DNA of 51,653 nucleotides. Source: Elusimicrobiota bacterium (lineage in GTDB: Bacteria > Elusimicrobiota > Elusimicrobia > UBA1565). A model generated the notes under the pieces. The model had not been told where the DNA came from. It searched no databases and saw nothing but the letters and a program-made list of their open reading frames with translations. The stretch is from contig JACRDO010000163.1 in assembly GCA_016212885.1 (NCBI GenBank), forward strand, positions 1 to 51,653. The letters run 5' to 3'. Both the position numbers and the translations under genes were made by a program. How positions within the stretch are numbered: position 1 is the first letter of the stretch; each line of letters opens with the position of its first letter. This document shows positions 2,726 to 18,195 of the stretch, in pieces.

Positions 2726-2739
2726 AAGCCCGGAAGCGG

Positions 2740-2759: not shown

Positions 2760-2817
2760 CCCGCGCCAATTTCTACCGATGTTACGGACTTCAAACATCC
2801 TTTATCCCGCCTACCTT

Positions 2818-2970
2818 CTACGACGATTTGCGCAGGGGCCGCGACGCGCGGAAGCTCTCGGCTTGCTTTCGCGACGCCGCGATCTTCTGGTCGGGGGTCA
2901 GTTCCTTCTCGTCCTGAAAATGCGCGTCCCGCAGATTCCGCAGCCACTGCAGGGCGTCAAAGTTCTTCAC
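2818..2970 (-). CDS. Small partner protein of a PIN-domain gene
   Basis: A 50-residue reading frame starts with GTG at 2968-2970 and overlaps the 3' end of the PIN gene by 14 nt. The product is entirely helical and charged (KNFDALQWLRNLRDAHFQ, then LTPDQKIAASRKQAESFRA), which matches the small proteins often encoded next to this kind of PIN gene, in which a conserved central segment is followed by a helix ending in AEEFR-like residues. It is probably the antitoxin of a type II pair, with the toxin gene first. No DNA-binding domain is visible. Confidence 0.6.
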   Translation of the reverse strand: MKNFDALQWLRNLRDAHFQDEKELTPDQKIAASRKQAESFRASRPLRKSS

Positions 2971-3421
2971 GGACCACCTCCATGGGGCTGAATATCTGCA
3001 GTTGCTTGTAGCCCAGCAGGACGTTGACCGCGTTGAATCGCAGGATTTTGTCGAAGCGGACGATGTGCTTGAAGTTCCAGCTGACCACGATATCCGCCCC
3101 GCTTACCGCGGCGACGGCGATGTGCCGCGCATCGTATTCGAAATTCTCCGTGAGGATGCCTTCGGAAATGTATTTTCGAGCCAACTCGATGGATTCGGGA
3201 GATTCTTGGACGCGCTGAACCGCGCCTTCCATCAGGTCATCGTAAACGGCCTGCACCTCCTGAGGGGCTTCCTTCAACTCGGTTTCGGTGATGTTGGATA
3301 CCATCGGGGCCAGCAGGCCCGATTGGATATCCCGCATCAGCGCCAATGACCACTTGCGGAACTCCTCGTCGCAGCATCCTCCGATGACCGAAGTGTCCAG
3401 ATAGACCAGCGGCGGCTTCAT
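2957..3421 (-). CDS. PIN-domain protein (VapC-like toxin)
   Basis: A 154-residue PIN-domain protein. The acidic residues expected for Mg2+-dependent RNase activity are visible: YLDTSVIGG at the N terminus, TETELKEA in the middle, and FEYDARHIAVAAVSGADIVVSWNFKHIV near the C terminus. It belongs to the PIN family that starts P-x-V-Y-L-D-T-S and ends with a long hydrophobic strand. ATG 3421 is preferred over the upstream codon at 3436 because TACAAT (3429-3434) overlaps the longer version and would place transcription start at or next to 3421. The gene overlaps a small helical partner gene downstream and lies between cassette joints of the DGR island. Confidence 0.8.
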   Translation of the reverse strand: MKPPLVYLDTSVIGGCCDEEFRKWSLALMRDIQSGLLAPMVSNITETELKEAPQEVQAVYDDLMEGAVQRVQESPESIELARKYISEGILTENFEYDARHIAVAAVSGADIVVSWNFKHIVRFDKILRFNAVNVLLGYKQLQIFSPMEVVREEL

Positions 3422-3482
3422 GTTGACATTGTACAACTCACGGGCGGCGCGCGCTAGTCGCAGTCCTAAGGCCCAGAAACGA

Positions 3483-3541
3483 TATAATCCGCCTCAGCCA
3501 TGACCAAGGCCTCCGGACCCGCGCCTTGCGGCACGGCGCCG
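3483..3541 (+). repeat. Orphan promoter fused to TR-flanking sequence
   Basis: TATAAT (3483-3488), 11 nt and ATG 3500 match the DGR-target promoter. The approximately 40 nt after the ATG match 17517-17558, just downstream of the DGR template repeat, with only a few differences. No conserved protein is encoded in either place. The arrangement suggests that a whole cassette between the promoter and the TR flank was deleted here, leaving both ends joined. Confidence 0.65.
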
Positions 3542-3547
3542 GCTTCT

Positions 3548-3895
3548 TTATTTTCTCGAAGCTTCCAGCGCGGAGAGCCGCTTGCCGTGGTCCTTCAGCC
3601 TGTCTTCGTGGTCCACGAGGATGGCGCCGTGGCTCAGGGCCTTCTATTCGTATCGCTTGCCTTTTACGACAGAGGTTTCGAATGCGGCGAGGAGTTCGCC
3701 GCGGAAGGAGCGGAGTTCTGAAAGGATTCTATCTTCAACCTTGTCCATGCGGATGTTCGCCTTTCCAATCTCGATCGCCAGGCGCTTGAAATCCTCTTTC
3801 ATTTCGGATCGGACCGCCGACAAATCCGACCTGACAGCCGCAATCTCGGACTTCAGCTCGGACTTGGTGGCGGGCTTGTCGCCGTTGTTCGGCAT
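3548..3895 (-). pseudogene. Coiled-coil protein, interrupted by a nonsense codon
   Basis: Read from ATG 3895 this is a shorter paralogue of the coiled-coil gene at 9209-9793: KPATKSELKSEIAAVRSDL, then RSEMKEDFKRLAIEIGKA and FRGELLAAFETSVVKGKRYE. After KRYE the paralogue has GAG but this copy has TAG (3644-3646); the frame then continues intact to TAA at 3548-3550 with the same C-terminal segment (HGAILVDHED). A single nonsense mutation has therefore removed about 31 residues. The first part may still be made. TATAAT-like sequence lies 6 to 7 nt upstream of the ATG. The gene and its upstream region are part of the same duplicated block as glycosyltransferase fragment B. Confidence 0.7.
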
Positions 3896-3948
3896 AACGC
3901 GATTATAGCAGTTCGCCCTGGAGCGGGTAAGGGTCATAAGGCCCACAT

Positions 3949-4145
3949 CAGCCGCGCGATGAGCCGGGCATGGCGCCAGAGCTCCCGCAGGCTCCGGAGC
4001 TTGGAGCGGCCGGTGCGGCGGGTCGTCAAGGGGAGAGGGACCTCGATGAGGCGGCGGCCCGCCCTCAGGAAGAGGACCGCGATCTCCGCGGAGGCCTCGA
4101 AGCCCTCGCTCTGAAAGCCGCAGGCTCGGAGCGCCGAGACGCGGT
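3949..4145 (-). pseudogene. Glycosyltransferase 3' fragment B
   Basis: About 197 bp match the C-terminal coding part of the glycosyltransferase at 18263-18952 (GFQSEGFEASAEIAVLFLRAGRRIVEVP... on the minus strand). The match begins near the stop codon and breaks off at GAGCGCCGAGACGCGGT, the same break-point as fragment A. It lies directly upstream of the promoter of the first DGR target. Confidence 0.8.
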
Positions 4146-4161
4146 GGGAGCCCGGAAGCGG

Positions 4162-4181
4162 TATAATCCGCCTCAGCCATG
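4162..4181 (+). promoter_or_regulatory. Promoter of DGR target 1 (near-leaderless)
   Basis: TATAAT at 4162-4167 is followed after 11 nt by the ATG at 4179. With transcription starting 6-8 nt after the -10 box, only about 4-5 nt of leader would precede the start codon, and no Shine-Dalgarno sequence is present. No good -35 box is visible. The same unit occurs at 2740, 3483 and 11087. Confidence 0.6.
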
Positions 4182-7100
4182 CCTTCGCCGGGGGACCCGA
4201 AGTTTCTCGAGCATTTCAAGAAAGCCGCGGCCCTCTACCAGAAAGGCCGTATCGAAGACGCCGTCCAGGAGTTCCGCGAGGCGATCCGGATCGACCCGAA
4301 CGTGGCCGAGGCTCGCTGCAACCTGGGCGTGGCCCTGGCCAAGCTCGGCAGAGACGACGAAGCCATCACCGAGCTGGAAGCCGCGCTCAGGATAGACCCC
4401 AAGCACGCCGCGTCGTGGTACAACCTGGGGATGCGGCTGGAGGCCAAGGGCCGCGGCGCTGAAGCGATCAAAGCCTACGCGAACTTCATCGCCAACGCTT
4501 CCGACAAGCGGCGCGGGTACGTCGATGACGCCAAGTCCCGCATTGCCGCCTTGAAGCGCGGCCAGGGGACCATGACCGAAGGCTCCGGGCCGGAGTCGAT
4601 GATCCTTGACCCCGCGGGCCATGATACCCCGACGATCCTTCCTGATGCATCGGCCTGGGTCCCTGGCGCCGTTATGGAGGATCTCTATGAAGTCCGTTCC
4701 GTGCTGGGAGAGGGGGGCTTCGGGTCCGTCTACAAGATCTATCATCAGGGCTGGGGGCTGGAACTTGCGGTGAAGTCGCCGCGCGAGGACCGGGTCGCGA
4801 ACCGCCGGGCTTTGGAAAGATTCGTTCAGGAGGCGAACACCTGGGTAGGCCTGGGGCTCCATCCGCATATCACGACCTGCTATTTCGTGCGCATCATCGG
4901 CGGGCTTCCCCGCATCTTCATCGAGCACATGGAAGGCGGGAGCCTGTCGGACTGGCTTCATGCCCGTAAAGTGGGCGACGCGAAGACGGCATTGGACATC
5001 GCCATCCAGATCGCGCGCGGCATGGAGTACGCGCATTCCAAAGGGCTTGTGCACCGGGACTTGAAGCCCGGCAACTGCCTCATGGCGCCCAGCGGGGCCC
5101 TCAAGGTGACGGATTTCGGCCTGGCTAAAGTGGGCGGAGCCGAGGACGAAGTGGATTCCGCGCCGGAGCTTGCCAGGGGCGCGAAAATAGCGAAGGTCCG
5201 GGAATCCACCATGACGGGCAGGATGGGCACGCCGGAATACATGGCGCCCGAGCAGTGGTATCAGGCCGGAAAAGCGACCCGGACCGCGGACATCTGGGCC
5301 TTCGGCGTGATCCTCTATGGGCTCTTCTGCGGCCGCAACCCCTTTAAGATATCGGATCAAGAGCCGTTGGACGTGTTCTACGCGCGAATGCTGGAAAGCA
5401 ACTGGGCCTACGCGGCGCCCGATAAGCTCGATACCGGCCTTCGGGTGATCATCGCCTCGTGCCTGAAGCCGGAGCCGGGGATGCGGCCCGGCGACTTCAA
5501 GCCCTTGCGCGAGCGTCTTGAGGAGGTCTACCAAAGGCTCGTAGGGGCGGCGTACCCTCGCGAAGAAGTGAGGAAGGCGCCGCTCCTGGCGGACGCGCTC
5601 AACAACCAGGGCGTTTCCATGGCAGACTTGGGGCGCAAATACGAGGCCGAACGCTTGTTCAACGAGGCGCTGAAGCTTGACCCGGCGCACCCGGGAGCGG
5701 TCCACAACCTCGGGCTCCTGCTGATGGAAGCGGGGAAAGCGAAGGAAGGCGACCTCCTCGCCCGCTTGAACTCATGCAAGAAAGCAAGGCCGGCGGATTG
5801 GGCCGTCTGCTACCTGCTCGGGCTCGCGCGCCTTCGAGGCAGCGACGCCGCATCCGCAGCCCGGGAGTTCGGCAAGGCGGCCGAGCTTTCGCGCGGAAAC
5901 TCGATGGCGATGAGGGCGCTGGAGAAGGCCAAGCGATGGGACTTCGGCTGGGCCGGGGCGCGGGAGCTGTTCGTGATGCTCCCGCGCGGCGTTGAGAGCG
6001 CCCAGAAGGCCGAAGCCGAGTTCAAAGCGTTGATCGGTCAAGCTCAGCAGGCCGCGGATTCCGGAAGATACGGTGATGCCTACGAGACGCTGGACAATGC
6101 CAGGCATATCGAGGGTTATGAGAGGTCTTCGATTGCGCTGGACTTGCTCCAGCGCATAGGCCTGAAAGGGAGGCGGAAAGGCCTGGTCGCGGGCTGGCAC
6201 AAGAGGACATTTGAGGGGAAGGCCGGCCCCGTATTGTCCGCGGCTTTTACGCCGGATGGGAAGCAGGCGGTTTCCGGCGGGGCTGACGGGACTCTGCGTG
6301 TTTGGCATGTCGACACGGGGCAATGCCTGCGCACGCTGAGAGGCCATAGCGGGGCCCTCCGGTGCGTCTGCATGACGCCGAGCGGGGCGTCCGTCGTTTC
6401 CGGAGGCGATGACGGCGATGTCCGGGTTTGGGATCTGAAGACAGGCGCTTGCGCCGTTCTCAAAGGCCACGCGGGCGTGGTGATCGGGATCGCCATGCTG
6501 CCCGATGGCGCAGTCCTTTCATTGGGAAAGGACAGATCCCTGATGCTTTGGAACATCAAGAGTTGGAAGGGCTTGGGGATTGTCGGGACATATGTGGAGC
6601 CGGTCAATGGCCTTTGCGTCACGCCGGAGGGACGCCAAGCCCTCACCATCAGCGCGGACAAGACCCTCGGGCTCTACGACATCAAGTCGAGGGAAAGCGC
6701 GAGGGCCGTCCCGCTGGAGAGGGCGTCCCTCAGCCTTGCGGTCTCGCCGAACGGCGAGTGCGTCTTATTCGGAAGCAAGTTCGGGAGCGTCTGCCTATGG
6801 GGCCTGGCCGCGGGAAAGAGCGTCGCTGAATTGAAAGGCCACGAAGGCTCGGTGAAGTGCGTGGATTTCCTGGATGACCGCTTCGCCCTGTCAGCAGGCG
6901 ATGACAGGGTCTTGAGGGTTTGGGACCTCCGCGAGGGGAGGCAGGTTGGGCAGTTCGAGGGACACGCCGGCTCCGTGAATTCAGCCTGCTTTGCGCCCGA
7001 TGGACGGTTCGCGCTTTCCGCGAGCGATGACGGGACTGTTCGGCTGTGGGAAATGGAATGGGATTTCGAATTTCCCGCGCGGTCTTGGGACGGGGAGGCG

Positions 7101-8750
7101 GATGCGTACCTTGAGAAATTCATCGCCTCGCGCGGCTGGCGGGCCTGGGTGGAGTCGAAGAGGCTCCTTGAGGAATTTTCGCGCCGGGGATTCGGGTGGC
7201 TGAGGCCGTGGGCCGTGAGACGGAGGTTGTGGGGCAAGGTGTTTCGCAGGTACGGTTTCAGGGCCGCGGGCGTCATGGCTGTTTTGGCGCTGGTTTTTTC
7301 TTTTACCGCCCGGTATTTGGCCTATAAAGACTCGACGCGGGCGTCGGCATCGGCGATGTCGGCAGGCAAAGCCCCATCGCATGAGGTCAAGCCGGGGGAG
7401 ATGGCTCTCATCCCCGCCGGCGAGTTCATCATGGGCTCGCCGGAAGGAGAGGGCGCTCCGAACGAGCATCCGCGCCACAAGGTGTATTTGGATGCGTTCC
7501 ACATGGACAAGTACGACGTGACCGTAGCCGAGTACCGCGAATTCACGCAGGCGGTCGGCCGACAAATGAGGCTCCAACCGTATTGGAACAAGGACAACCA
7601 GCCTGTGGTGAACGTGGACTCGAACGACGCGAGGTTGTACTGCGAATGGGCGGGCAAGCGCCTGCCGACCGAGGCGGAGTGGGAGAAAGCGGCCAGGGGC
7701 GGAACGGATAAGAGGTACGGCGCCGCGGACAGCGAGCGCGAGTTGGGCGACTACGCTTGGTTCCAGGTGAATTCAAGCAGCCAGACCCATCCCGTTGGGC
7801 AGAAAAATCCGAACGCATATGGCTTGTTCGACATGAATGGGAATGTTTGGCAATGGACCGCGGATTGGTACGATGAGAATTATTTCACGAAGAGCCCGGC
7901 CGGGAACCCGCAGGGTCCCCCATCCGGGAAGTTCCGCGCCCTCCACGGCGGCGCGTGGAGCAGCGGCTCGATAAGCCTGCGGCCTGCCGACAGGAACGCG
8001 CTCTTTGCCGACTACTGGATGGACGACATCGGGTTCAGGTGCGCGCGGGGGGGCGCGCAGGAGGCGAAGATCGAATGGGTGGGACTGCTGGGTGGGACTT
8101 TCATGATGGGATCGGAGGGCGGCGGCGCCGATGAGAGGCCCGCGCACCGGGTGAGGGTGAGGGCGTTCGAGATGGCGAAGAGCGAAGTCACGGTGAAGCA
8201 ATACAAGGCTTGCGTGGATGCCGGAGCCTGCGCGGCGCCGGGTACACGCGGGCTTTGCAACTGGGGCGCGGCAGGCAGGGAGAATCATCCGGTCAACTGC
8301 GTCGACTGGTTTGAGGCGAAAACGTTTTCCGAGTGGGCGGGGGGAAGGCTCCCCACGGAAGCCGAGTGGGAGTACGCGGCAAGAAGCGCGGGCAAGGACC
8401 GGAAGTATCCATGGGGGAACGAGGCGGCGACGTGCGGGAAGGCTGTGATGGCTGGATGCGGTCAGCTTTCGACATGGCCGGCGTGCTTCAAGCCTGGGGG
8501 AAACACGGAGCAGGGGTTGTGCGACATGGCAGGCAACGTTTGGGAATGGACACAGGATTGGTATCATGGCTCGTACAATGGAGCGCCAAGTGACGGCAGT
8601 GCGTGGGAGAGCCCAGCGGGCTCGGTCCGGGTGCTTCGGGGCGGCTCCTGGAACAGCGGCGCCGGGAGCGCCCGGGCGGCCAGCCGCAACGACGGCGGCC
8701 CGGGCTCCCGCAACGGCCGCCTGGGGTTCCGCCCGTCGAGGTCTCAATGA
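4179..8750 (+). CDS. DGR target 1: TPR-kinase-WD40 receptor with tandem FGE-sulfatase domains
   Basis: A 1523-residue multidomain protein. In order: TPR repeats (about 1-115); Hanks Ser/Thr kinase (about 165-450) with intact GEGGFGSV loop, AVK lysine, HRDLKPGN catalytic loop, DFGLAK and APEQW; a second TPR (about 467-530); a WD40 propeller (about 675-960); one membrane helix (about 1028-1047); then two FGE-sulfatase/SUMF1-type domains, 1072-1289 and 1298-1523. The kinase, TPR and WD40 parts should be cytoplasmic and the FGE domains outside. The FGE family has a C-type-lectin-like fold and is a common DGR substrate. The last 44 codons contain VR1, so the tip of the second FGE domain is hypervariable, while the first FGE domain is not. 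Paralogue: 11104-15324. Transcription is from the near-leaderless promoter just upstream. Confidence 0.9.
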   Translation: MPSPGDPKFLEHFKKAAALYQKGRIEDAVQEFREAIRIDPNVAEARCNLGVALAKLGRDDEAITELEAALRIDPKHAASWYNLGMRLEAKGRGAEAIKAYANFIANASDKRRGYVDDAKSRIAALKRGQGTMTEGSGPESMILDPAGHDTPTILPDASAWVPGAVMEDLYEVRSVLGEGGFGSVYKIYHQGWGLELAVKSPREDRVANRRALERFVQEANTWVGLGLHPHITTCYFVRIIGGLPRIFIEHMEGGSLSDWLHARKVGDAKTALDIAIQIARGMEYAHSKGLVHRDLKPGNCLMAPSGALKVTDFGLAKVGGAEDEVDSAPELARGAKIAKVRESTMTGRMGTPEYMAPEQWYQAGKATRTADIWAFGVILYGLFCGRNPFKISDQEPLDVFYARMLESNWAYAAPDKLDTGLRVIIASCLKPEPGMRPGDFKPLRERLEEVYQRLVGAAYPREEVRKAPLLADALNNQGVSMADLGRKYEAERLFNEALKLDPAHPGAVHNLGLLLMEAGKAKEGDLLARLNSCKKARPADWAVCYLLGLARLRGSDAASAAREFGKAAELSRGNSMAMRALEKAKRWDFGWAGARELFVMLPRGVESAQKAEAEFKALIGQAQQAADSGRYGDAYETLDNARHIEGYERSSIALDLLQRIGLKGRRKGLVAGWHKRTFEGKAGPVLSAAFTPDGKQAVSGGADGTLRVWHVDTGQCLRTLRGHSGALRCVCMTPSGASVVSGGDDGDVRVWDLKTGACAVLKGHAGVVIGIAMLPDGAVLSLGKDRSLMLWNIKSWKGLGIVGTYVEPVNGLCVTPEGRQALTISADKTLGLYDIKSRESARAVPLERASLSLAVSPNGECVLFGSKFGSVCLWGLAAGKSVAELKGHEGSVKCVDFLDDRFALSAGDDRVLRVWDLREGRQVGQFEGHAGSVNSACFAPDGRFALSASDDGTVRLWEMEWDFEFPARSWDGEADAYLEKFIASRGWRAWVESKRLLEEFSRRGFGWLRPWAVRRRLWGKVFRRYGFRAAGVMAVLALVFSFTARYLAYKDSTRASASAMSAGKAPSHEVKPGEMALIPAGEFIMGSPEGEGAPNEHPRHKVYLDAFHMDKYDVTVAEYREFTQAVGRQMRLQPYWNKDNQPVVNVDSNDARLYCEWAGKRLPTEAEWEKAARGGTDKRYGAADSERELGDYAWFQVNSSSQTHPVGQKNPNAYGLFDMNGNVWQWTADWYDENYFTKSPAGNPQGPPSGKFRALHGGAWSSGSISLRPADRNALFADYWMDDIGFRCARGGAQEAKIEWVGLLGGTFMMGSEGGGADERPAHRVRVRAFEMAKSEVTVKQYKACVDAGACAAPGTRGLCNWGAAGRENHPVNCVDWFEAKTFSEWAGGRLPTEAEWEYAARSAGKDRKYPWGNEAATCGKAVMAGCGQLSTWPACFKPGGNTEQGLCDMAGNVWEWTQDWYHGSYNGAPSDGSAWESPAGSVRVLRGGSWNSGAGSARAASRNDGGPGSRNGRLGFRPSRSQ
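8617..8740 (+). repeat. DGR variable repeat VR1
   Basis: Aligns without gaps to the template repeat 17336-17459 over 124 bp. All 17 differences fall on TR adenines (27 mutable adenines before the conserved 3' end); no other base differs. The last 20 bp before the stop region are identical and would act as the initiation-of-mutagenic-homing region. The VR codes for the C terminus of target 1, with 15 variable codon positions embedded in the constant RGGSW, ARAA and LGFRP framework. Confidence 0.95.
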
Positions 8751-8802
8751 ACACTTGGCCCTTGATCCCTTGGACCCTTGGCAAAACGCGAATGGAGCGC
8801 GG

Positions 8803-8864: not shown

Positions 8865-9088
8865 ATGAAGCTCAAGGTCTTCACCCTGCGCATGAATCCG
8901 GCGACGGGAATTTTCGACGACCGGGAGCTCTGCGAATTCCAGCTGGGCAAGGACGTGCTCGAAGTCTCGGAGCATTTCCTCGTGCACGAGAAGACGCCGA
9001 CGCTCGTTCTTGTCCTCCGCTATCGGGAACTCCCCGACGGGGCAAGCCGGCCGCCGGAGACTGCGCGCAAGGATTGGCGCGCGCAGCG
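8865..9088 (+). pseudogene. Truncated HRDC-type DGR accessory gene
   Basis: The first about 74 residues match the N-terminal domain of the intact accessory protein at 15437 (MKLKVFTLRMNPATG, FLVHEKTPTL, RYRELPDGAS, RKDWRA). The match stops at about 9088, where an internal deletion of roughly 0.6 kb joins it to the end of an avd gene. The HRDC domain is lost, so the product cannot be functional in the usual way. Confidence 0.8.
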
Positions 9089-9138
9089 TGGACGAGGCCG
9101 GCCGCATGCTCGGCGGCTGGCTTAAGAGCCGCAAGTGA
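9089..9138 (+). pseudogene. Remnant 3' end of an avd gene
   Basis: The translation DEAGRMLGGWLKSRK followed by TGA corresponds to the last 15 or so residues of the intact Avd-type protein (16275-16319). Everything upstream in the gene was deleted in the event that also truncated the HRDC gene. The stop overlaps the start of the RT remnant exactly as in the intact cassette. Confidence 0.75.
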
Positions 9139-9205
9139 AGCGCGTCGGATATCTTTTCGAGCAGGTCGCCGATTTCCACGCCTTGTGCGCCGCGGCCCGC
9201 CGGGC
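9135..9205 (+). pseudogene. Remnant 5' end of a DGR reverse transcriptase
   Basis: Starting with GTG at 9135 (ATG in the intact gene) the frame reads KRVGYLFEQVADFHALCAAARRA, the first 24 or so residues of the intact RT at 16316. The match ends at about 9205, just before the stop codon of the convergent coiled-coil gene. No catalytic motif remains and there is no TR in this copy. Confidence 0.8.
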
Positions 9206-9208
9206 CCT

Positions 9209-9793
9209 TTATTTGCCTAAGGTTTTCAGCGCGGAGAGCCGCTTGCCGTGGTCTTTCAGCTTGTCTTCGTGGTCCACGAGGATGGCGCCGTGGGTCAGGG
9301 CCTTCTCCTCGTATCTCTTGCCTTTGACCACGGAAGATTCGAACGCTGCGAGGAGCTCGCTGCGGAAGGCGCGGAGTTCCGAACGGAATTCGGCCGTCGA
9401 CTTGTCGATGCGGGTGTTTGTCTTGTCGAATTCAACCGCGACTTTGGTCCGGAATGCCGTGAGATCTGATTGAAGAGTTCCGACATCGGCCTTGACGGCC
9501 GCAATCTCGGACTTCAACTCGGACTGGGTCGCCGACAAATCAGACCTCACGGCCGCAATCTCGGACTTCAACTCGGACTGGGTCGCCGACAAATCAGACC
9601 TCACGGCCGCAATCTCGGACTTCAACTCGGACCGGGTCGCCGACAAATCAGACCTCACGGCCGCAATCTCGGACTTCAGCTCGGACCGGGTCGCCGACAA
9701 ATCAGACCTTACGGCCGCAATCTCGGACTTCAGCTCGGACCGGACAGCCGACAAATCAGACTTGGTCGCGGGCTTGCCGCCGTTGCTCGGCAT
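9209..9793 (-). CDS. Coiled-coil protein with 18-residue repeats
   Basis: A 194-residue protein, almost entirely helical. After KPATKSDL it has five copies of an 18-residue unit of the type SELKSEIAAVRSDLSATR, then a further coiled-coil (TAFRTKVAVEFDKTNTRIDKS) and a C-terminal segment FESSVVKGKRYEEKALTHGAILVDHEDKL. No membrane segment or enzyme motif is visible; oligomerisation through the coil is the likely property. I do not recognise the family. Start ATG 9793 follows TATAAT (9800-9805) by only 6 nt, so the mRNA would be leaderless. A truncated paralogue lies at 3548-3895, each located directly beside a glycosyltransferase fragment, so it belongs to the ancestral DGR cassette or its flank. 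Confidence 0.7.
   Translation of the reverse strand: MPSNGGKPATKSDLSAVRSELKSEIAAVRSDLSATRSELKSEIAAVRSDLSATRSELKSEIAAVRSDLSATQSELKSEIAAVRSDLSATQSELKSEIAAVKADVGTLQSDLTAFRTKVAVEFDKTNTRIDKSTAEFRSELRAFRSELLAAFESSVVKGKRYEEKALTHGAILVDHEDKLKDHGKRLSALKTLGK
9498..9767 (-). repeat. Five tandem 54-bp repeats inside the coiled-coil gene
   Basis: Units begin at 9498, 9552, 9606, 9660 and 9714 and are nearly identical (differences such as CTGGG/CCGGG and CAAC/CAGC). They are in frame and encode the 18-residue coil unit, so copy-number changes by slippage or recombination would lengthen or shorten the rod without breaking the frame. The paralogue at 3548-3895 has only about one such unit. Confidence 0.85.
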
Positions 9794-11086: not shown

Positions 11087-11106
11087 TATAATCAGCCTCA
11101 GCCATG
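11087..11106 (+). promoter_or_regulatory. Promoter of DGR target 2 (near-leaderless)
   Basis: TATAAT (11087-11092) precedes ATG 11104 by 11 nt, as in the other three copies of this promoter. The upstream AAGGCCCA-type sequence is shared with 3464, 3940 and 9838. No Shine-Dalgarno sequence is present. Confidence 0.6.
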
Positions 11107-14100
11107 CCCGCGTCCAGGGGCCCGAAGTTTCTCGAGCATTTCAAGAAGGCCGCGGCCCTCTATCAGGGAGGCCGCGTCGAAGACGCTGTCCGCGAGTTCC
11201 GCGAAGCGATCCGCATCGATCCTAACGTGGCCGAGGCGCGCTGCAACCTTGGCGTGGCCCTGGCGAAGCTCGGCAAAGACGACGAAGCCGTAGCCGAGCT
11301 GGAAGCCGCCCTCAGGATAGACCCCAAGCACGCCGCGTCGTGGTACAACCTCGGCATGCGGCTGGAAGCCAAGGGCCGCGCGGGCGAAGCGATCAAAGCC
11401 TACGCGAACTTCATCGCGAACGCTTCTGAGAAGCGGCTGAAATATATCGAGGACGCGAACTCGCGCATCGCGGCGCTGAGGCGGCTGCAGGAGCCCGGCG
11501 GCCAGACCATGACCATGGGCTCTGAGCCCAAAGCGATGAGCCTGGGCGGCGCTGAAGGCACGATGACCCTGGGCCCCAAGGGTGAAGGGACCCTGACGCT
11601 CGGGCCCGGGGGGCAGGCTCCGGCCGTCGCCTCCGGAGCCGGCTGGAGCGTCGGCGCAATCATCGAGGATCTCTACGAGGTCCGGAGCGTGCTCGGTGAA
11701 GGCGGGTTCGGGTCCGTCCACAAGGTATTCCACCGGGGCTGGGAGCTTGAGCTTGCGGTCAAGTCCCCGAGGGAGGACAAGGTCTCAAACCGCAGGGCCT
11801 TGGAGCGGTTCGTCCAGGAAGCCAACACCTGGGTCGGCCTGGGGCTCCATCCGCACATCACCACCTGTTTCTTCGTCCGCATCATAGGCGGCCTGCCGAG
11901 GATATTCATCGAGTACATGGAAGGGGGCAGCCTCTCGGACTGGCTCCATTCCCGCAAAGTCGGCGATGCGAAGACCGCGCTGGACATCGCCATTCAGATC
12001 GCCCGGGCCATGGAGCACGCCCACTCAAGAGGGCTGGTGCACAGGGACTTGAAGCCCGGCAACTGCCTGATGACGCCTGGCGGGATGCTCAAAGTCACTG
12101 ATTTCGGCTTGGCCAAGGTGGGAGAAGAGGAGGAGGAATCGGCCGAGGACCTGCCCAAGGGCGCGAAGATCGCGCGGGTGAAGGAAGCGACTCAAACAGG
12201 GAGGCTTGGGACCCCGGAGTACATGGCGCCTGAGCAGTGGTACCAGGCGGGCAAGGCGACCGGGGCCGCGGATGTCTGGGCTTTCGGCGTGATCCTGCAC
12301 GAGTTCGCCTTGGGCAAGAAGCCCTTTGAGATGAAGGACGACGAGCCGCCGGACGCCTTCTACGCGAGGATGCTTGAGAGCGAGTGGGCTTTGAAGATCA
12401 CCTCCAAGATGGACTCGGAGATGCGGGAGGTGATCGCTTCCTGCCTCTCGCCCGATCCTGGGAAACGGCCGCAGGACTTCAGGCCTTTGCGCGAGCGCCT
12501 TGAGAGGGCCTACCAGAGGCTGGTGGGTTCAGTTTATCCGCGCGAGGCGGTCAAAGAGACGCCGCTTCTGGCGGACGCGCTCAACAACCAGGGCGTATCC
12601 ATGTCTGACTTGGGCCGGGCCGATGAGGCTTTGAGGCTCTTCGAGGCTGCGCTCAAGATGGACCCGATGCATAAGGGGGCGGCGCATAACCGGCGTGTGC
12701 TTCTTGGCGAGTCGAAAGAGGCGCTGTTCGTCGCTCTTCCAAGGGGCGCTGAAGGCGCGCGGATGGAGGACTCGGCGTTCAGGGCTCTGCTCTCGCGGGC
12801 CGAGCAGGAGATCTCCTCCGGGGACTGGGGCAAGGCGTACCAGACTCTCGGCAAGGCTCGCGGCGTGCAGGGCTACGAGCGCTCGGCCAAGGCTTTGGAT
12901 TTGCTCCAGAGCCTCGGGTTGAGGGGAGTTCGCAAAGGCTTGAGGGCGGGCTGGCGGAAGGCGTTGTTTGCGAAATCAGAATCCGCGCTGTGCGCGTGCA
13001 TTACCGCGGATGGGAAGCGGATCTTGAGCGGGCATGAGGACAAGACCCTGAAGCTCTGGGACCTCTCCTCAGGCGGCCGGCTCTGGACCGTGGAGGCGCA
13101 CGCCGGGCCTGTGGCCGCGGTCTGCTTGACGCCGAACGGCAAGCATGCCCTGACCGGCGGCGCGGACCGGGCCGTGAAGCTTTGGGACGCGGAGACGAGC
13201 AGGTGCGTGCGCACCTTCTTGGGCCACGGCGGGAGCGTGAGCTCGGTCTGCGCCCTGCCCGACGGGGCCTCCGCTCTCTCCGCGGGCTTGGACAGGACCT
13301 TGAGGCTCTGGGACATTTGGACCGGCAAGCAGGTATTCTCTTTTGCGGCTCATCAAGGCGGGGTCCATTGCATCGCGGCGAGCCCGGATGGGAAGCTCGC
13401 TCTCACCTGTGGGAAAGACAAGTCTTTGAACGTCTGGAATATGCCCAAGGGCGCTCATGCGCGCAAGCTTGAAGGCCATACAGGCGCCGTGCTTTCAGCC
13501 TGCATCCTGCCGGATGGGAGGCATGCCCTGTCTGCGAGCGAGGACAAGACGCTCAAGCTTTGGGAGCTTTCGACCGGCCGGTGCGCAAGGACCTTCGAGG
13601 GGCACGAAGGCGCCGCGCGGAGCGTTTGCTCGACGCCGGACGGGAAATTCGCGCTGAGCGCAGGCGGGGACGGTAAGCTGAAGGCGTGGGACATTTCGAC
13701 GGGCGAGTGCGTCGGGACGTTCGATCAGGAAAGCATCCATTGCGTTTCCATGATGCCGGACGCAAGGCATGCGCTCTCAGCCGGCGAGGATGGGCTGGGG
13801 GTCTGGGAACTTGACTGGAAGTATTCCTTCCCGGAGCAATCGGACTGGGACCCGGGGGCCCGGCCTTATGCGGAGAGCTTCTTGGGAGCGCATAAGACTT
13901 GGACCGACGCGGATTTCAAGGGCCTGCTTGAGGAATTGGGGCGGCGCGGATTCGGTTGGCTCAAGCCGGATGGGGTGCGCAGGAAGCTTGAGAGGGCGAG
14001 CACGGATGGGTGGGGGGAGGAGGGGCCCAGGGCGCCCGTGCCCAAAGGGGTGTGGGCCGGCGCGGCAGCGGCAGCGGTCCTTGTGAGCGCTGCGTTCTTT

Positions 14101-15324
14101 TTCATGATGAGGCAGGCTCCGGAGGTGAAGGGGCCTGAGAAACCTCAAGCCCCTTCGTTCGACCAGGCGAGGCCGCTCCGGAGCAGGCCGGCTGAGGAGC
14201 ATCCGTCAAGCCTGGCCATGATCAAGACGGATAAGCCCGCGGCGAAGCCGGAGGCGATCCCGGAGCCTGCCGGGCCGAAATTGAACATGCATTTCATTTT
14301 CCCTGTCGCCTTCATCCCGGGCACTGCGAGGGTGAGCGGCGAAGGTGCGAAGAGGCTCAAAGAAGCTGCGCTCCTGGCGCCGGACTACCCGCAGGAGCAG
14401 GTGGAGGTCATTGGTTATGCGGGCCCGTCGGAGCCGGATGCCGAGGCCCTGGCCCGTAATCGCGCGCAGATCGCCGCGGATTACCTCGTCGGCAAGGCCC
14501 GGATTCCTTCCGGGCGGGTTCAAAGGCGTTCTGTCGTGAGCGGCGAGGGGGCGGGCAGAGCGGAGATCCAGCTTTTGAGCGAGGCGGGTGAGGCGGTTAG
14601 GGCTTCCGAGCCCGCGGCGGAGGGGGCGAAGTCTTCGCAGGGCAAGGCCGGGATCGTGTGGGTGAGGATACCGGGTGGGAGCTTTAGGATGGGAACGGGA
14701 AATGGTGACGAGGGTCCGGCGCATCAGGTAGCGGTGAAGCCTTTTCAGATGGCGAAAACGGAGGTTACTGTAGCGCAGTACAAAGCGTGCGTGGATGCGG
14801 GGGGGTGCACGGCGCCGGATACAGGCAAGTATTGCAACTGGGGTGTGAGCGGCAGAGAGAATCATCCGGTCAACTGCGTGGACTGGAACCAGGCTAAGAA
14901 GTTTTCCGAATGGGCGGGGGGGAGGCTTCCATCAGAAGCGGAATGGGAGTACGCGGCCCGGAGCGCCGGGAAGGACAGGGAATATCCTTGGGGTGATGAG
15001 GACGCGACCTGCGAGAGGGCGGTCATTTCAGGCTGTGGCAACGGAACAGCATCCATGTGCTCGAAATCTGCGGGCAATACCGCGCAAGGTTTGTGCGACA
15101 TGGCGGGCAATGTATGGGAATGGACACAGGATTGGTATCATGGCTCGTACAATGGAGCGCCAAGCGACGGCAGCGCGTGGTTGTCGCCTGCGGGCTCGGA
15201 CCGGGTGTTTCGGGGCGGCTCCTGGGGCATCGGCGCCGGGTTCGCCCGGGCGGCCCTCCGCCTCAACCCCGGCCCGGGCATCCGCTTCGGCCGCCTGGGG
15301 TTCCGCCCGTCGAGGTCTCAATGA
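11104..15324 (+). CDS. DGR target 2: TPR-kinase-WD40 receptor with OmpA-like and FGE-sulfatase domains
   Basis: A 1406-residue paralogue of target 1. Domains: TPR (1-115); Hanks kinase (about 188-470) with GEGGFGSV, AVKSP, HRDLKPGN, DFGLAK and APEQW all intact; TPR (about 480-540); WD40 propeller (about 622-909, at least six GH...WD units); membrane helix (about 982-1003); an OmpA/MotB-like peptidoglycan-binding-type domain (about 1060-1160, HFIFPVAFIPGTARVS, then EVIGYAGPSE and ALARNRAQIAADYL); and a single FGE-sulfatase domain (about 1183-1406) whose last 44 codons hold VR2. The cytoplasmic part is close to target 1, while the region between membrane and variable domain has been replaced. 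The TR, RT and accessory genes follow immediately downstream, so this is the cis target. Confidence 0.9.
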   Translation: MPASRGPKFLEHFKKAAALYQGGRVEDAVREFREAIRIDPNVAEARCNLGVALAKLGKDDEAVAELEAALRIDPKHAASWYNLGMRLEAKGRAGEAIKAYANFIANASEKRLKYIEDANSRIAALRRLQEPGGQTMTMGSEPKAMSLGGAEGTMTLGPKGEGTLTLGPGGQAPAVASGAGWSVGAIIEDLYEVRSVLGEGGFGSVHKVFHRGWELELAVKSPREDKVSNRRALERFVQEANTWVGLGLHPHITTCFFVRIIGGLPRIFIEYMEGGSLSDWLHSRKVGDAKTALDIAIQIARAMEHAHSRGLVHRDLKPGNCLMTPGGMLKVTDFGLAKVGEEEEESAEDLPKGAKIARVKEATQTGRLGTPEYMAPEQWYQAGKATGAADVWAFGVILHEFALGKKPFEMKDDEPPDAFYARMLESEWALKITSKMDSEMREVIASCLSPDPGKRPQDFRPLRERLERAYQRLVGSVYPREAVKETPLLADALNNQGVSMSDLGRADEALRLFEAALKMDPMHKGAAHNRRVLLGESKEALFVALPRGAEGARMEDSAFRALLSRAEQEISSGDWGKAYQTLGKARGVQGYERSAKALDLLQSLGLRGVRKGLRAGWRKALFAKSESALCACITADGKRILSGHEDKTLKLWDLSSGGRLWTVEAHAGPVAAVCLTPNGKHALTGGADRAVKLWDAETSRCVRTFLGHGGSVSSVCALPDGASALSAGLDRTLRLWDIWTGKQVFSFAAHQGGVHCIAASPDGKLALTCGKDKSLNVWNMPKGAHARKLEGHTGAVLSACILPDGRHALSASEDKTLKLWELSTGRCARTFEGHEGAARSVCSTPDGKFALSAGGDGKLKAWDISTGECVGTFDQESIHCVSMMPDARHALSAGEDGLGVWELDWKYSFPEQSDWDPGARPYAESFLGAHKTWTDADFKGLLEELGRRGFGWLKPDGVRRKLERASTDGWGEEGPRAPVPKGVWAGAAAAAVLVSAAFFFMMRQAPEVKGPEKPQAPSFDQARPLRSRPAEEHPSSLAMIKTDKPAAKPEAIPEPAGPKLNMHFIFPVAFIPGTARVSGEGAKRLKEAALLAPDYPQEQVEVIGYAGPSEPDAEALARNRAQIAADYLVGKARIPSGRVQRRSVVSGEGAGRAEIQLLSEAGEAVRASEPAAEGAKSSQGKAGIVWVRIPGGSFRMGTGNGDEGPAHQVAVKPFQMAKTEVTVAQYKACVDAGGCTAPDTGKYCNWGVSGRENHPVNCVDWNQAKKFSEWAGGRLPSEAEWEYAARSAGKDREYPWGDEDATCERAVISGCGNGTASMCSKSAGNTAQGLCDMAGNVWEWTQDWYHGSYNGAPSDGSAWLSPAGSDRVFRGGSWGIGAGFARAALRLNPGPGIRFGRLGFRPSRSQ
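15191..15314 (+). repeat. DGR variable repeat VR2
   Basis: Ungapped alignment to TR 17336-17459 shows 22 substitutions, every one at a TR adenine. Variable positions give hydrophobic and aromatic residues (F, G, I, F, L, L, P, I, F) where VR1 has mostly S, N, D and G. At the three TR GAC codons both VRs read GGC, and at the last AAC both read CGC. The constant 3' end is followed by the same stop and 3' flank as VR1. Confidence 0.95.
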
Positions 15325-15376
15325 ACACTTGGCCCTTGATCCCTTGGACCCTTGGCAAAACGCAAAGGGAGCGAGG

Positions 15377-15402
15377 CCGGGCGCGCGCGAAGCCGCGACC
15401 GG
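15377..15402 (+). other. GC-rich hairpin downstream of VR2
   Basis: CCGGGCGCG (15377-15385) pairs with CGCGACCGG (15394-15402) with one mismatch and the same 8-nt loop as the element after VR1, at the same distance from the VR end. Conservation in both copies could reflect recent duplication as much as function. Confidence 0.45.
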
Positions 15403-15436
15403 ATGAGCGACCGAAGCCGGGCATGAGGCGATATAG

Positions 15437-16045
15437 ATGAAGCTCAAAGTTTTCACCTTGCGCATGAAACCGGAAACCGGGATATTCGACGACAAGGAAC
15501 TTTCTGAATTCCAGCTGGGAAAGGACGTGCTCGAAGTCTCGGAACATTTCCTCGTCCACGAGAAAACCCCGACGCTCACCCTTGTCCTCCGCTACCGGGA
15601 ACTCCCCGACGGAGCAAGCCGGTCGCCTGAGGCAGTCCGCAAAGACTGGCGCGCGGAGCTGGACTTGGAGGGCAAGCGCATCTACGACGAGCTTCGCCTC
15701 TGGCGCGGCCGCAAGGCCAAGCGCGAAGGCATGCCGCCCTATCTCATCTTGAACAACCGCGAGCTCGCCGAGCTTGCGATGAAGAAGCCCGCGACGCTCG
15801 CGAATCTGCGCGACATCGAAGGGATCGGCGAGGCCAAGTCCGAGCGCTGGGGCGAAGAGATCCTGGCCTTGCTCGCGAGCCTCGCGCCGCCCCCTCCGGC
15901 GAAAGGAGAACGCCCCGCGCCTTCGGGGACGGCGGCTCCCATGCCGCCGAAAAATCCGGGGGGGGGGGTAATTCATGGCTTCCGTCGAGCTTCCCCTCTT
16001 CGTCCACTGGGAGAAGACGCTCAGGGATATCCTCTCGCGCACTGA
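15437..16045 (+). CDS. HRDC-domain DGR accessory protein
   Basis: A 202-residue protein. The N-terminal about 60 residues (KVFTLRMKPETGIFDDKELSEF, DVLEVSEHFLVHEKTPTL, YRELPDG) form a domain known to me from genes next to DGR reverse transcriptases; about residues 75-145 are an HRDC domain (YDELRLWRGRKAKREGMPPYLILNNRELAELAMKKP... IEGIGEAKSERWG), a helical nucleic-acid-binding module of RecQ helicases and RNase D. HRDC proteins are a recognised alternative or additional DGR accessory, presumed to act on template RNA or cDNA. The tail after residue 150 is Pro-rich, crosses an 11-G tract and overlaps avd by 71 nt. With one G fewer the frame would meet TAA immediately, so the last about 28 residues may be a slippage or sequencing artefact. 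Confidence 0.85.
   Translation: MKLKVFTLRMKPETGIFDDKELSEFQLGKDVLEVSEHFLVHEKTPTLTLVLRYRELPDGASRSPEAVRKDWRAELDLEGKRIYDELRLWRGRKAKREGMPPYLILNNRELAELAMKKPATLANLRDIEGIGEAKSERWGEEILALLASLAPPPPAKGERPAPSGTAAPMPPKNPGGGVIHGFRRASPLRPLGEDAQGYPLAH
15958..15968 (+). promoter_or_regulatory. Run of 11 G: Shine-Dalgarno for avd and possible slippage site
   Basis: Eleven consecutive G end 6 nt before the avd ATG at 15975, so the tract itself is the only Shine-Dalgarno-like sequence for avd. It also lies inside the HRDC frame: at G11 the frame runs on to 16045, at G10 it stops at TAA directly after the tract. Length variation would change both HRDC C terminus and, possibly, avd translation. Confidence 0.7.
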
Positions 16046-16319
16046 GAAGTTTCCCAAGCGCGTCCGCTTCACCCTCTCATCGCGCATAGACAACCTCGCT
16101 CTCGATATACTGGGGAACATCGTCGAAGCGCGCTACACCAAGGACAAGTCGGCTGTTCTGGCTCAGGCAAGTCTTGGCTTGGAGAAGCTCAGAGTCCTTC
16201 TTAGAATCTGCCACGACGAGCGGCATCTGGACCACAAAGGCTTTGAGCATGCCGCGCGAAACATAGACGAGGCCGGACGGATGCTCGGCGGCTGGATACG
16301 CAGCCGGAGCGTCCAATGA
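15975..16319 (+). CDS. avd: Avd-type accessory variability determinant (four-helix bundle)
   Basis: A 114-residue, basic, all-helical protein of the four-helix-bundle/Avd (bAvd) family: FVHWEKTLRDILSRTEKFPKRVRFTLSSRIDNLALDILGNIVEARY, then LEKLRVLLRICHDERHLDHKGFEHAARNIDEAGRMLGGW, with the conserved F-P-K-x-x-R and D-x-L-x-x-I-x-x-A-x-Y patterns. In studied DGRs Avd forms a positively charged pentameric barrel that binds the RT and TR RNA and is needed for mutagenic homing. It overlaps the RT start by 4 nt (ATGA), indicating translational coupling. A remnant of a second copy lies at 9089-9138. Confidence 0.9.
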   Translation: MASVELPLFVHWEKTLRDILSRTEKFPKRVRFTLSSRIDNLALDILGNIVEARYTKDKSAVLAQASLGLEKLRVLLRICHDERHLDHKGFEHAARNIDEAGRMLGGWIRSRSVQ

Positions 16320-17353
16320 AGCGAGTCGGATATCTTTTCGAGCAGGTCGCCGATTTCGGGGCTTTGTGCGCCGCTGCCAGACGCGCCGCGCGCGGCAAAG
16401 GAGAGACCCCCTCAGCCGCGTCCTTCACCTTCCACATGGAGACCGAGGTCCTCAAGCTTCAGCGCGAGTTGTTGGACGGCAGCTATCGGCCTCGGCCCTA
16501 TAGGACGTTTACCGTATCGGACCCCAAGCCCAGGACCATCTCGGCCGCGGAATTCAGGGATAGGGTGGCCCATCACGCCCTGTGCGCGGTCCTGGAGCCG
16601 CTATTCGAGCGCGCCGCGATATTCGATTCCTACGCGTGCCGGCCGGGCAAGGGCTCGCACGCGGCCATCCGCAGGGCGCAGGCTTTCGCGAGGCGCTTCG
16701 GCTATTTCCTCAAGCTCGACGTCCGCAAGTTCTTCGAGAACGCGGATCATGGGGTCATCAAGCGGAGCTTGGGGCGCCTGGTCAAGGACAAGCGGCTCTT
16801 GGCCTTGGCAGACGTGATCATAGACCACGGCGCGCCGGGCTCCGCTCCCGGCAAGGGGCTTCCCATCGGCAACCTGACCAGCCAGCATTTCGCGAACCAC
16901 TACCTGAGCTCGCTCGACCATTTCATCAAGGAAGGCCTGCGCGTGCGGGGCTACGTGCGCTACATGGACGACCAACTGTTGTTTTCGGACTCGAAAGATT
17001 CCCTGCGCGACGCGCATCGCCGCATCCGCGCCTTTGTGGAGGGGGAACTCAAGCTCGATCTCAAGTCCGAAGCGACCATCCTGGCTCCGGTTTCGGAGGG
17101 CGTTCCATTTCTGGGCCTGCGCTTGTGGCCGGGAGTCGTCCGTCTGGACGGCCCGGCCAAGCGCAGGCTGATCCGCAGCCTCAGGATGGGGGCGCAAGGC
17201 CTGGCGAGCGGGCGACTGGATGAGAACGATCTCGCAGCCTCCCTGAGGAGCCGCCTGGGCCACGCGGCTCACGCAGACACTCTCGGCCTTAGACGTTCAC
17301 TCGGAGATCTGATGGATCTTGGTTCGGAGGCGATACGGGCTCGAACCGGGTGA
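16316..17353 (+). CDS. Diversity-generating retroelement reverse transcriptase
   Basis: A 345-residue RT with the features of the DGR clade: YMDD catalytic motif (about residues 216-219, VRYMDDQLLF), LKLDVRKFFENADH with the first catalytic Asp, and GLPIGNLTSQHFANHYL (about 181-197), where the G-x-x-x-S-Q motif replaces the Q-G-x-x-x-S-P of group II intron and retroviral RTs. There is no maturase or endonuclease domain. It copies TR RNA into cDNA with errors at adenines, and the cDNA replaces VRs in the two receptor genes. The stop codon (17351-17353) lies inside the TR. A truncated 5' copy is at 9135-9205, so this is the only intact RT here. Confidence 0.95.
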   Translation: MKRVGYLFEQVADFGALCAAARRAARGKGETPSAASFTFHMETEVLKLQRELLDGSYRPRPYRTFTVSDPKPRTISAAEFRDRVAHHALCAVLEPLFERAAIFDSYACRPGKGSHAAIRRAQAFARRFGYFLKLDVRKFFENADHGVIKRSLGRLVKDKRLLALADVIIDHGAPGSAPGKGLPIGNLTSQHFANHYLSSLDHFIKEGLRVRGYVRYMDDQLLFSDSKDSLRDAHRRIRAFVEGELKLDLKSEATILAPVSEGVPFLGLRLWPGVVRLDGPAKRRLIRSLRMGAQGLASGRLDENDLAASLRSRLGHAAHADTLGLRRSLGDLMDLGSEAIRARTG

Positions 17354-17459
17354 ATCGGGGCGGCTCCTGGAACAACGACGCCGGGAACGCCCGGGCGGCC
17401 AACCGCAACAACAACGACCCGGGCAACCGCAACGACAACCTGGGGTTCCGCCCGTCGAG
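17336..17459 (+). repeat. DGR template repeat (TR)
   Basis: The 124-bp donor of VR1 and VR2. In the VR reading frame it contains twelve AAC/AAT codons and three GAC codons, 27 adenines in all, placed mainly at first and second codon positions so that adenine mutagenesis gives many amino acids but never a stop (NNC, NNT or GNC). The last 20 bp (from CTGGGGTTCC to GAG) have no mutable adenine except one and are identical in both VRs. The 5' end overlaps the last 18 nt of the RT gene. Unlike the VRs it is not followed by a stop plus 3' flank, but by unrelated sequence. Confidence 0.95.
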
Positions 17460-17700
17460 CTCACTGCCGTCGGCCCGATGCCTTGCGTCCAAGGACTCAG
17501 GGCCCGCGCCCAGGCCATGACCAAGGCCTCCGGCCCCGCGCCTTGCGGCACGCCGCCGCAGGGACGAAGAGCAAGAAGCGCCGCGCCTGCCGGTAGGGCT
17601 ATGGAACGGTCTCGAACGCCGGCGCGGCTTCCCGGGCGGTGCCCGGGGCCTGATGGGAAACCCCGCTGAGCTAAGCTATGGCGGCAAGACCGGCCGGCTG
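17460..17700 (+). ncRNA. Candidate template-RNA spacer downstream of TR
   Basis: About 240 nt without a convincing gene separate the TR from the HicB promoter. In the Bordetella phage DGR the sequence just downstream of TR is part of the template RNA and binds RT-Avd for cDNA priming, so this region is the natural candidate here. It contains a hairpin CCCGGGC-GGT-GCCCGGG (17631-17647). Part of it (17517-17558) recurs at 3500-3541. That it is transcribed as a functional RNA is inference. Confidence 0.45.
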
Positions 17701-17701
17701 A

Positions 17702-17722
17702 TATAATATGTCGAAACCAATG
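17702..17722 (+). promoter_or_regulatory. Promoter of the second HicBA pair
   Basis: TATAAT (17702-17707) ends one base before an ATG at 17708, and a second in-frame ATG follows at 17720. Since transcription should start about 6-8 nt after the hexamer, the ATG at 17720 is the workable start and the mRNA would be nearly leaderless. Confidence 0.55.
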
Positions 17723-17962
17723 AAGAAGAGCTACCATCTCACAGCCGCCATCTGGAAGGAAGGGAAGAGATTCGTCTCCAAATGTCCGGAGCTCGGCGTC
17801 GCCTCCTGCGGGACCACCCCTGAGAAGGCGCAGGCCGCGCTGGAGGAGGCGGTCGAACTCTACCTGTCCAACGCCAAGAAGCTCGGCTTGCTGGAAGACG
17901 TGGAGCCCGCGCTGTCCTCTGAAACCCGGTACACCGCGCCTCTCAACGTCGCGATAGCCTGA
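17720..17962 (+). CDS. HicB-like antitoxin
   Basis: An 80-residue protein with the compact HicB fold: strand (YHLTAAIWKEGKRFVSKCPELGVASCGTTPEKAQAALEEAVELYL), typical of the HicB/UPF0150 family in which a short sheet with a CPELG loop is followed by a helix. It should bind and inhibit the adjacent HicA-like protein. No ribbon-helix-helix domain is present, so autoregulation is uncertain. It overlaps the toxin gene by 3 nt (TGATG). The pair stands between the DGR template region and the glycosyltransferase, where other cassette copies carry the coiled-coil gene. Confidence 0.8.
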   Translation: MKKSYHLTAAIWKEGKRFVSKCPELGVASCGTTPEKAQAALEEAVELYLSNAKKLGLLEDVEPALSSETRYTAPLNVAIA

Positions 17963-18195
17963 TGCGGCTTCCGTCGCTTTCGTCGAAGCGGATCATCCGC
18001 GCCCTGCGGCGCGCGGGGTTCATCGAAGCCCCGGACCGCGGGAAGGGCAGCCATCGCGCATTCTTCAGGCAGGACACCGAAGGGCGCGTGCGGCTGGTCA
18101 TCGTGCCCCAAGGCAAGGACATCCCCCGCGGGACCCTTTTTGCGATTTTGGAGCAGGCGGGCTTGAGCAAAGAGGGGTTCCGCAAGCTTCTCTGA
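17962..18195 (+). CDS. HicA-like toxin
   Basis: A 77-residue HicA/YcfA-type mRNA interferase: SSKRIIRALRRAGFIEAPDRGKGSHRAFFR holds the helix and the G-S-H motif with the catalytic His, followed by the strand RLVIVPQGKDIPRGTL and the C-terminal helix AILEQAGLSKEGFRKLL, all canonical. Translation is coupled to hicB by the TGATG overlap. The organisation makes it a stabilising addiction module next to the DGR, but a role in maintaining the DGR is inference. Confidence 0.85.
   Translation: MRLPSLSSKRIIRALRRAGFIEAPDRGKGSHRAFFRQDTEGRVRLVIVPQGKDIPRGTLFAILEQAGLSKEGFRKLL

Follow-up and report, generated by a model that had tools for sequence, protein, structure and literature searches.

A 51,653-nucleotide stretch of DNA from an Elusimicrobiota bacterium (contig JACRDO010000163.1 of assembly GCA_016212885.1; hereafter the window) was found to carry a diversity-generating retroelement (DGR). 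It is predicted to copy a single template repeat (TR), with errors at adenines, into the ends of the genes for two likely kinase receptors and of one gene elsewhere in the genome; to this account as a whole we give a probability of roughly 0.87. The identification as a DGR is supported by the pattern of differences between the TR and its variable repeats (VRs), by adjoining genes for a reverse transcriptase (RT), an Avd protein and an HRDC protein, and by the placement of the VR at the C-terminal end of a target with a lectin fold. The DGR itself is of a known kind. The new variation is on the target side, where an array of short units stands behind the VRs in the window and the hairpin known from phage DGRs is lacking. 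Coordinates are those of the window; features lie on the plus strand, except for one set of older remains to which no strand was assigned.

The TR (17336-17459) contains 28 adenines and 96 other bases. It aligns without gaps to VR1 (8617-8740) and VR2 (15191-15314), in which 17 and 22 of the 28 adenines are altered and none of the 96 other bases. All 39 substitutions thus fall at TR adenines, as a sequence-only reading of this DNA had claimed. With an even spread of differences across the 124 positions, all of them would fall at adenines with a probability of 1e-11 for VR1 and 6e-15 for VR2. The same reading had described a complete DGR with two VRs; the DGR stands, the number does not. When the masked TR pattern was searched against the whole genome (3.83 Mb in 174 contigs, 92% complete), a third repeat, VR3, was found on a separate contig (C27:54268-54391) with 12 of the 28 adenines altered and none of the 96 other bases. 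A second search pattern, taken from the 3' part of the TR, gave the identical four places and nothing further. Across the three VRs, 51 of 51 differences are confined to 28 of the 124 positions. VR3 and VR1 are identical in 96 of 96 non-adenine columns, while their flanks agree in 49 of 60 bases upstream and in 20 of 60 downstream. Identity of this kind despite diverged flanks would be expected if one template had been used for rewriting, and VR3 is the strongest case for rewriting in trans.

The claimed codon content of the TR reading frame, 12 AAC or AAT and three GAC codons, matches the translation (12 N and three D). The true start of the repeat is probably at 17334 or 17335, shortly ahead of 17336. 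The adenine at 17335 is a dG in VR1 and VR2 and a dA in VR3; TAC is read there in seven of the eight TRs that were aligned. At position 17334, VR1 differs from the dT of the TR, a caveat to the earlier start. The final codons of the RT gene, stop codon included, lie within the 5' end of the TR. DGRs are expected to have an initiation of mutagenic homing (IMH) site where the VR ends and a slightly differing IMH* where the TR ends; here the final 21 bases of the repeat are constant, and the base that follows is dC in the TR and dG in the three VRs.

The RT gene (16316-17353) was identified by profile, structure match and phylogeny. The protein carries IGNLTSQ at residue 184 and YMDD at residue 216, in agreement with the motifs (YMDD and G-x-x-x-S-Q) reported earlier for the RT adjoining the TR. 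Avd (15975-16319) was found above cut-off with the NF033474 profile (3.8e-27) and also with bAvd (4.3e-17), and the HRDC protein (15437-16045) with PF00570 (1.2e-18), so that both proposed neighbors of the RT were recovered by profile. All three reading frames are open. The RT is 37.4% identical over 94% to Brt of phage BPP-1. Its best match among solved structures is 8ub7 (4.5e-53), with a group II RT as runner-up (2.2e-22); 8ub7 is itself matched by BPP-1 Brt along its full 328 residues (765.5 bits). RTs from other families of the same class are 70-80% identical to it. In a tree of 86 RTs, all from DGR loci with a TR/VR pair and thus with no non-DGR outgroup, it falls within an eight-row Elusimicrobiota clade with full support.

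Target 1 (4179-8750, 1523 amino acids) was found by Pfam, hydropathy and motifs to consist of TPR repeats, a Ser/Thr kinase, further TPR repeats, WD40 repeats, a predicted membrane helix and two FGE/lectin-fold stretches, with VR1 at its C-terminal end. Target 2 (11104-15324, 1406 amino acids), analyzed by Pfam and hydropathy, has TPR repeats, a Ser/Thr kinase, WD40 repeats, a predicted membrane helix (14050-14106; residues 983-1001, hydropathy 2.05), an OmpA-like domain and an FGE/lectin fold ending in VR2. The kinase motifs AVKS, HRDLKPGN and DFG are present in both. The hydropathy scan of target 1 also flags residues 756-783, which lie inside the WD40 part and were taken for propeller strands. 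The FGE lectin-fold scores in the targets are 8e-54 and 2.8e-112 (Pfam), and the fold matches variable protein 1 of Treponema denticola (2y3c, 8.3e-17). Both targets look like membrane kinases and are likely kinase receptors, with an arrangement (TPR, kinase, WD40, membrane helix, lectin fold) that is unusual for DGR targets. FGE is the single Pfam domain of the VR3 gene. Among nine targets scanned in relatives, eight contained FGE and one a kinase. A third kinase-WD40-FGE gene, 86% identical over residues 1-1353, is present on contig C19 (G000:C19:48010-48535) and stops where the contig does, immediately ahead of the place at which its VR would be expected; the assembly seems to break at VRs. 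Contig C27 likewise ends 190 bases past VR3, and the genome is likely to hide a fourth VR. With regard to a possible defense role of the kinases, the best PADLOC match of both targets is mad6 (about 1e-66, covering the kinase part), and both are far below the cut-off of the NCBIfam model for mad6.

According to the passages available from one study (PMC3240598), efficient homing in BPP-1 needs a hairpin behind the VR, and hairpins of phage DGRs are reported at distances of 4-34 bp from it. A search for such a hairpin (GC-rich, with a 4-nt loop) recovered the 8-bp stem of BPP-1 and gave none behind VR1, VR2 or VR3 or in seven close relatives. The earlier statement that everything needed for mutagenic retrohoming is present was in this respect overstated. 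Directly behind the stop codons of both targets in the window stand four CTT units spaced by 7-8 nt (8752-8781, with CTT at 8754, 8761, 8769 and 8777, behind VR1; 15326-15355, with CTT at 15328, 15335, 15343 and 15351, behind VR2). An equal number of units was found in six of about 14,716 other intervals of this sequence, the array of the other VR included. VR1 and VR2 are duplicates, and their arrays are therefore not independent and were counted once. In six of the seven relatives the VRs are followed by three or four CTT units.

The array was also sought in two sets of viral DGRs, using only the best TR/VR pair of each locus. In the first set 81 of 90 loci had a TR/VR pair, and 69 flanks were kept after removal of near-copies and of flanks shorter than 50 bases; in the second set 56 of 74 loci had a pair and 42 flanks were kept. 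The second set shares some contigs with the first (e.g., L239 with L207); the array counts leave out near-identical flanks, the RNA counts given below do not. A period of 7-8 nt was found in 44 of 69 VR flanks and three of 69 TR flanks of the first set (shuffles 18/345, random sequence 23/631), and in 20 of 42 VR flanks and none of 42 TR flanks of the second (shuffles 26/420, random sequence 20/377). The gap from one CTG to the next was 7 or 8 in 126 of 151 cases in the first set; in the second, gaps of 7 or 8 made up 45 of 59 compared to 13 of 254 in controls. When units were counted, with all flanks and controls set to 70 nt, at least three CTG or CTT units were present in 53 of 111 VR flanks (40/69 and 13/42) and in none of the 111 TR flanks; the controls together gave 6/2189, with 4/1007 in random sequence and the remainder behind other stop codons. 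Exactly four units were found in 35 of the 53 arrays.

A hairpin of six pairs with a 4-nt loop was found behind 49 of 111 VRs, in seven of 111 TR flanks and in 10 of 993 random sequences. In 23 of the 27 loci with both elements, its inner six pairs begin 7-9 nt past the triplet of the last unit. The units read ATCTGNN or AACTGNN in phages and CNCTTNN in Elusimicrobiota (N is any nucleotide). These letters cluster on the tree of 86 RTs, with 22 changes compared to 42.6 in shuffles, a clustering that is inflated by near relatives. Pairing of the array with RNA 3' of the TR was considered and rejected: CAGAT was found in the 160 bases behind the TR in nine of 52 loci with an array, compared to 11 of the 59 loci lacking one and 95 of 555 controls. 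The array was not described in those passages on repeats, hairpins, IMH and motifs that came from PMC3240598, PMC12875486, PMC10907252, PMC4372165, PMC6642488 and PMC8144416; most subscription journals fell outside the search, and a description elsewhere is possible.

We consider it somewhat more probable than its opposite that DGR targets carry an overlooked tag, usually of four units of 7-8 nt behind the VR, in phase with the hairpin, with letters that follow the RT lineage, and that in the clade of the window the tag by itself takes the place of the hairpin. The Avd oligomer is a ring. The tag would be a mark from which the RT-Avd-RNA complex tells target from template, perhaps by way of this ring-shaped oligomer. 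The presence and placement of the array were counted; its role is the part that we infer.

Arrays were also met behind genes related to the targets. Among 18 FGE paralogs and remnants from the same genome, the family and genome G213, three or more CTT units were found in two, L101 and L135. L101 (G189:C183) is an FGE gene followed by four CTT units, and its genome gave no DGR RT at 1e-30; L135 lies in G213, where HRDC remains. Both may be silent targets. Behind an FGE paralog in the window's own genome (G000:C139, L026) there are two ATCTG units and a GC-rich inverted repeat of phage-type look.

The stretch behind the TR is conserved between the window and seven close relatives, and a structured RNA of 176 nt (17457-17632), starting at the 3' end of the TR, was predicted there from covariation, a covariance model and matches in viral DGRs. 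RNAalifold gave 52 pairs on the alignment of the eight sequences. In the unfitted alignment (A2), changes on both sides were found in 16 of 48 pairs, a number reached in none of 500 shuffles, although the structure was derived from the same eight sequences on which it was tested; 93.5% of cells pair, compared to 36-43% when the structure is slid. With 16 sequences fitted to the model, changes on both sides were found in 42 of 48 pairs. Model R1 was built from the eight loci (the window, a training row, scores 162.7 bits) and model R2 from 16 rows. R1 matched 18 of 90 viral DGR loci (E up to 0.01); a TR was detected for 17 of these matches, all of which begin between 8 nt before and 5 nt after the TR end. 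It also matched four of 10 loci of more distant Elusimicrobiota RTs (L084, L085, L089 and L090). Among viral loci with a TR, R2 matched 49 of 81 in the first set, from which five of its training rows came, and 34 of 56 in the second. Where there is a TR, the matches lie within 20 bases of its end in 43 of 50 and 34 of 41 cases, respectively; in L084 the match lies 5' of the TR. The positions of R2 matches were recorded with L087 and L088 left out of 47. A search for a 'GGTA...GAA' hairpin in 24 sources, independent of the model, recovered the RNA at all but one of the eight training-clade loci and gave three other matches.

In a survey of 340 genomes of the phylum, R1 matched in 14, seven of which are training genomes. 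Full-length copies of the RNA were seen at L130 (G198:C33:7518-7705) and L131 (G213:C11:50611-50781), with 149 and 135 bits, and no RT, Avd or HRDC was found within 14-15 kb around either copy. L130 seems to keep just the final TR bases ahead of the RNA. At L272, three R2 matches (4208, 4512 and 4816) on the same strand precede a single RT at intervals of about 300 bases, which is reminiscent of several templates arranged in tandem.

Rfam gave no match at E up to 1 in the window between 15300 and 18300, nor at this RNA in L081, L093, L094, L085, L089 and L090. The RNA of the window does not reach the cut-off of RT-14 (RF02921), and control genomes likewise gave nothing in one such scan. RT-14 spans the R1/R2 interval in two of four loci (L148 and L253) and was found at the same interval in 11 of 29 further loci, among which L139 and L223 are copies and L143 was tested twice. 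Phage_DGR (RF03022) spans the same place in BPP-1 (2355-2487), an RNA that neither R1 nor R2 finds. The idea that the RNA is wholly unknown was dropped, since RT-14 and Phage_DGR occupy this place in phages; only the spread of the RNA to the Elusimicrobiota clade is therefore new. It appears to represent one offshoot, missed by Rfam's models, of an RNA class already known. According to the passages of PMC12875486 that deal with it, the BPP-1 spacer RNA is folded, brings in bRT-Avd and acts as primer for the cDNA via an internal adenine, and by analogy we infer that the RNA of the window matches it in role.

Put together, one TR would be copied with errors at adenines and the copies written into VR1, VR2 and VR3. 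The RT-Avd complex would be held by the RNA at 17457-17632, which would also act as the primer for cDNA, as reported for the BPP-1 spacer RNA. The array could serve as a target-side mark that draws the complex to VR1 and VR2 rather than to the TR, replacing or joining the phage-type hairpin. The RT copy between the targets is decayed, and a single RT and TR would therefore serve all three VRs. The kinase and WD40 parts would be cytoplasmic and the variable lectin head beyond the membrane, in which case a changed head would change what the kinase responds to.

A number of observations weigh against this account or speak for other explanations. At 1e-30, no RT was found in one genome of the same genus and six further genomes of the family. 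The RNA of the window folds as a single sequence no better than shuffles (z -0.60; of three sequences tested, the two from relatives did better than shuffles, with z -3.39 and -2.77), and two of its pairs, read from A2, are broken. Together with a neighboring cassette that is decayed and older units that are scraps, this would be expected of a recently silenced DGR, in which the pattern records past activity and the locus is decaying. We regard this as unlikely, although a real contender, since the reading frames of RT, Avd and HRDC are intact, the motifs of the RT are present, and all three VRs agree with the TR in every one of the 96 constant columns, although the gene around one of these VRs has otherwise diverged. 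Little needs to be said for TR and VRs as plain repeats that diverged through ordinary mutation or gene conversion. Tandem duplications are frequent in the region, but 51 of 51 differences at 28 of 124 positions make this extremely improbable, and plain gene conversion was ruled out by the adenine-only pattern. On the side of the targets, their relation to the membrane is suggested by hydropathy and a marginal OmpA-like match in target 2 (28.3 bits with a cut-off of 27.2).

The array has its own points on the debit side: at least three units were not present in 58 of the 111 viral VR flanks, the second set having just 13 positives in 42; BPP-1 has no array behind its VR; the array of the relative L078 is blurred; and VR3 has neither array nor hairpin, from which it follows that neither may be needed or that VR3 may no longer be served. 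It could be a common gene 3' end, such as a terminator or a leftover of duplication, carried along without being part of the DGR. It does sit behind the stop codon of both targets, and VR1 and VR2 are duplicates with 57 of 60 downstream bases identical. Behind other stop codons of the viral loci, however, the period was found in 46 of 765 and 19 of 418 cases, compared to 44 of 69 and 20 of 42 behind VRs, and at least three units in 2 of 1182 compared to 53 of 111. The array is also phased with a hairpin type known to matter in BPP-1, and its letters vary by RT lineage while the period is constant. A passenger 3' end is thus doubtful, and an array belonging to the DGR is the preferred reading.

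The locus is likely to have undergone repeated tandem duplication, followed by loss of all RT cores but one. Between the targets lies a decayed copy of HRDC, Avd and the RT start (8865-9209), in which the HRDC frame ends early and Avd and RT are cut; its stretches are 85% and 79% identical to the intact cassette. Older tandem-unit remains (2657-4181) consist of repeats of the target start and of the end of a glycosyltransferase gene. The start-of-target repeat occurs four times (2728, 3471, 4150 and 11075), as does the end of the glycosyltransferase gene (2657, 3945, 9843 and 18271). A fragment of the RNA region 3' of the TR is present in older cassette remains (3497-3541) and is 95.6% identical to 17514-17558. 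The sequence-only reading had described a two-VR cassette; the kinase nature of the targets, the RNA, the array and the decayed second cassette were no part of it. Past the DGR RNA, at 17708-18195, there are a weak HicB-like frame (UPF0150, 0.001, below cut-off) and a HicA toxin gene (PF07927, 1.8e-14).

The entry of mutated cDNA into the target is described as incompletely understood in passages of PMC12875486, and how a near-identical template is spared is part of that question. The array, confined to targets and having a set period, a usual number of units and a near-fixed phase, is a concrete, removable element, found in lineages with and without the hairpin. If it is a tag, silent targets could be recognized by their sequence. 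A further feature of the locus is a hypermutable head on an apparent membrane kinase in Elusimicrobiota, a phylum for which a limited literature search found no DGR study (the sole match, by its title and the start of its abstract, was a fungus microbiome survey).

Compared to known systems, the window resembles BPP-1 in its RT (37.4% identity over 94%), Avd, adenine-only TR/VR differences and structured RNA 3' of the TR. It differs in having an HRDC gene, a TR that lies behind the RT gene and overlaps it, and no hairpin behind the VRs, whereas BPP-1 has a hairpin and no array behind its VR. The Treponema denticola DGR, in the parts of PMC4891356 available, shares the HRDC accessory gene, remote targets that could be served by one RT and TR, and a lectin-fold variable protein (2y3c); no kinase target is named there, and the window also has Avd. 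Closest on the target side are cyanobacterial Ser/Thr kinases with a C-terminal lectin domain carrying the VR, for which remote targets are also known and WD40 and TPR are among the less common features. In the passages of PMC7517822 these are mostly predicted to be cytosolic, whereas in the window kinase-WD40 and lectin head are separated by a predicted membrane helix, to which target 2 adds an OmpA-like domain. Thiohalocapsa PB-PSB1, with nine DGRs, shows that duplication and decay of DGR parts was already known, and its lectin-fold (also FGE) targets were proposed as sensors; it has STAND NTPase and MoxR-associated systems, and the portions of PMC10907252 concerned give a kinase domain in a figure key and describe no kinase-WD40-membrane target. 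Finally, Rfam RT-14 occupies the same interval 3' of the TR as R1 and R2 in phage loci such as L148, whereas neither RT-14 nor Phage_DGR, nor any other Rfam family, matches the RNA of the window.

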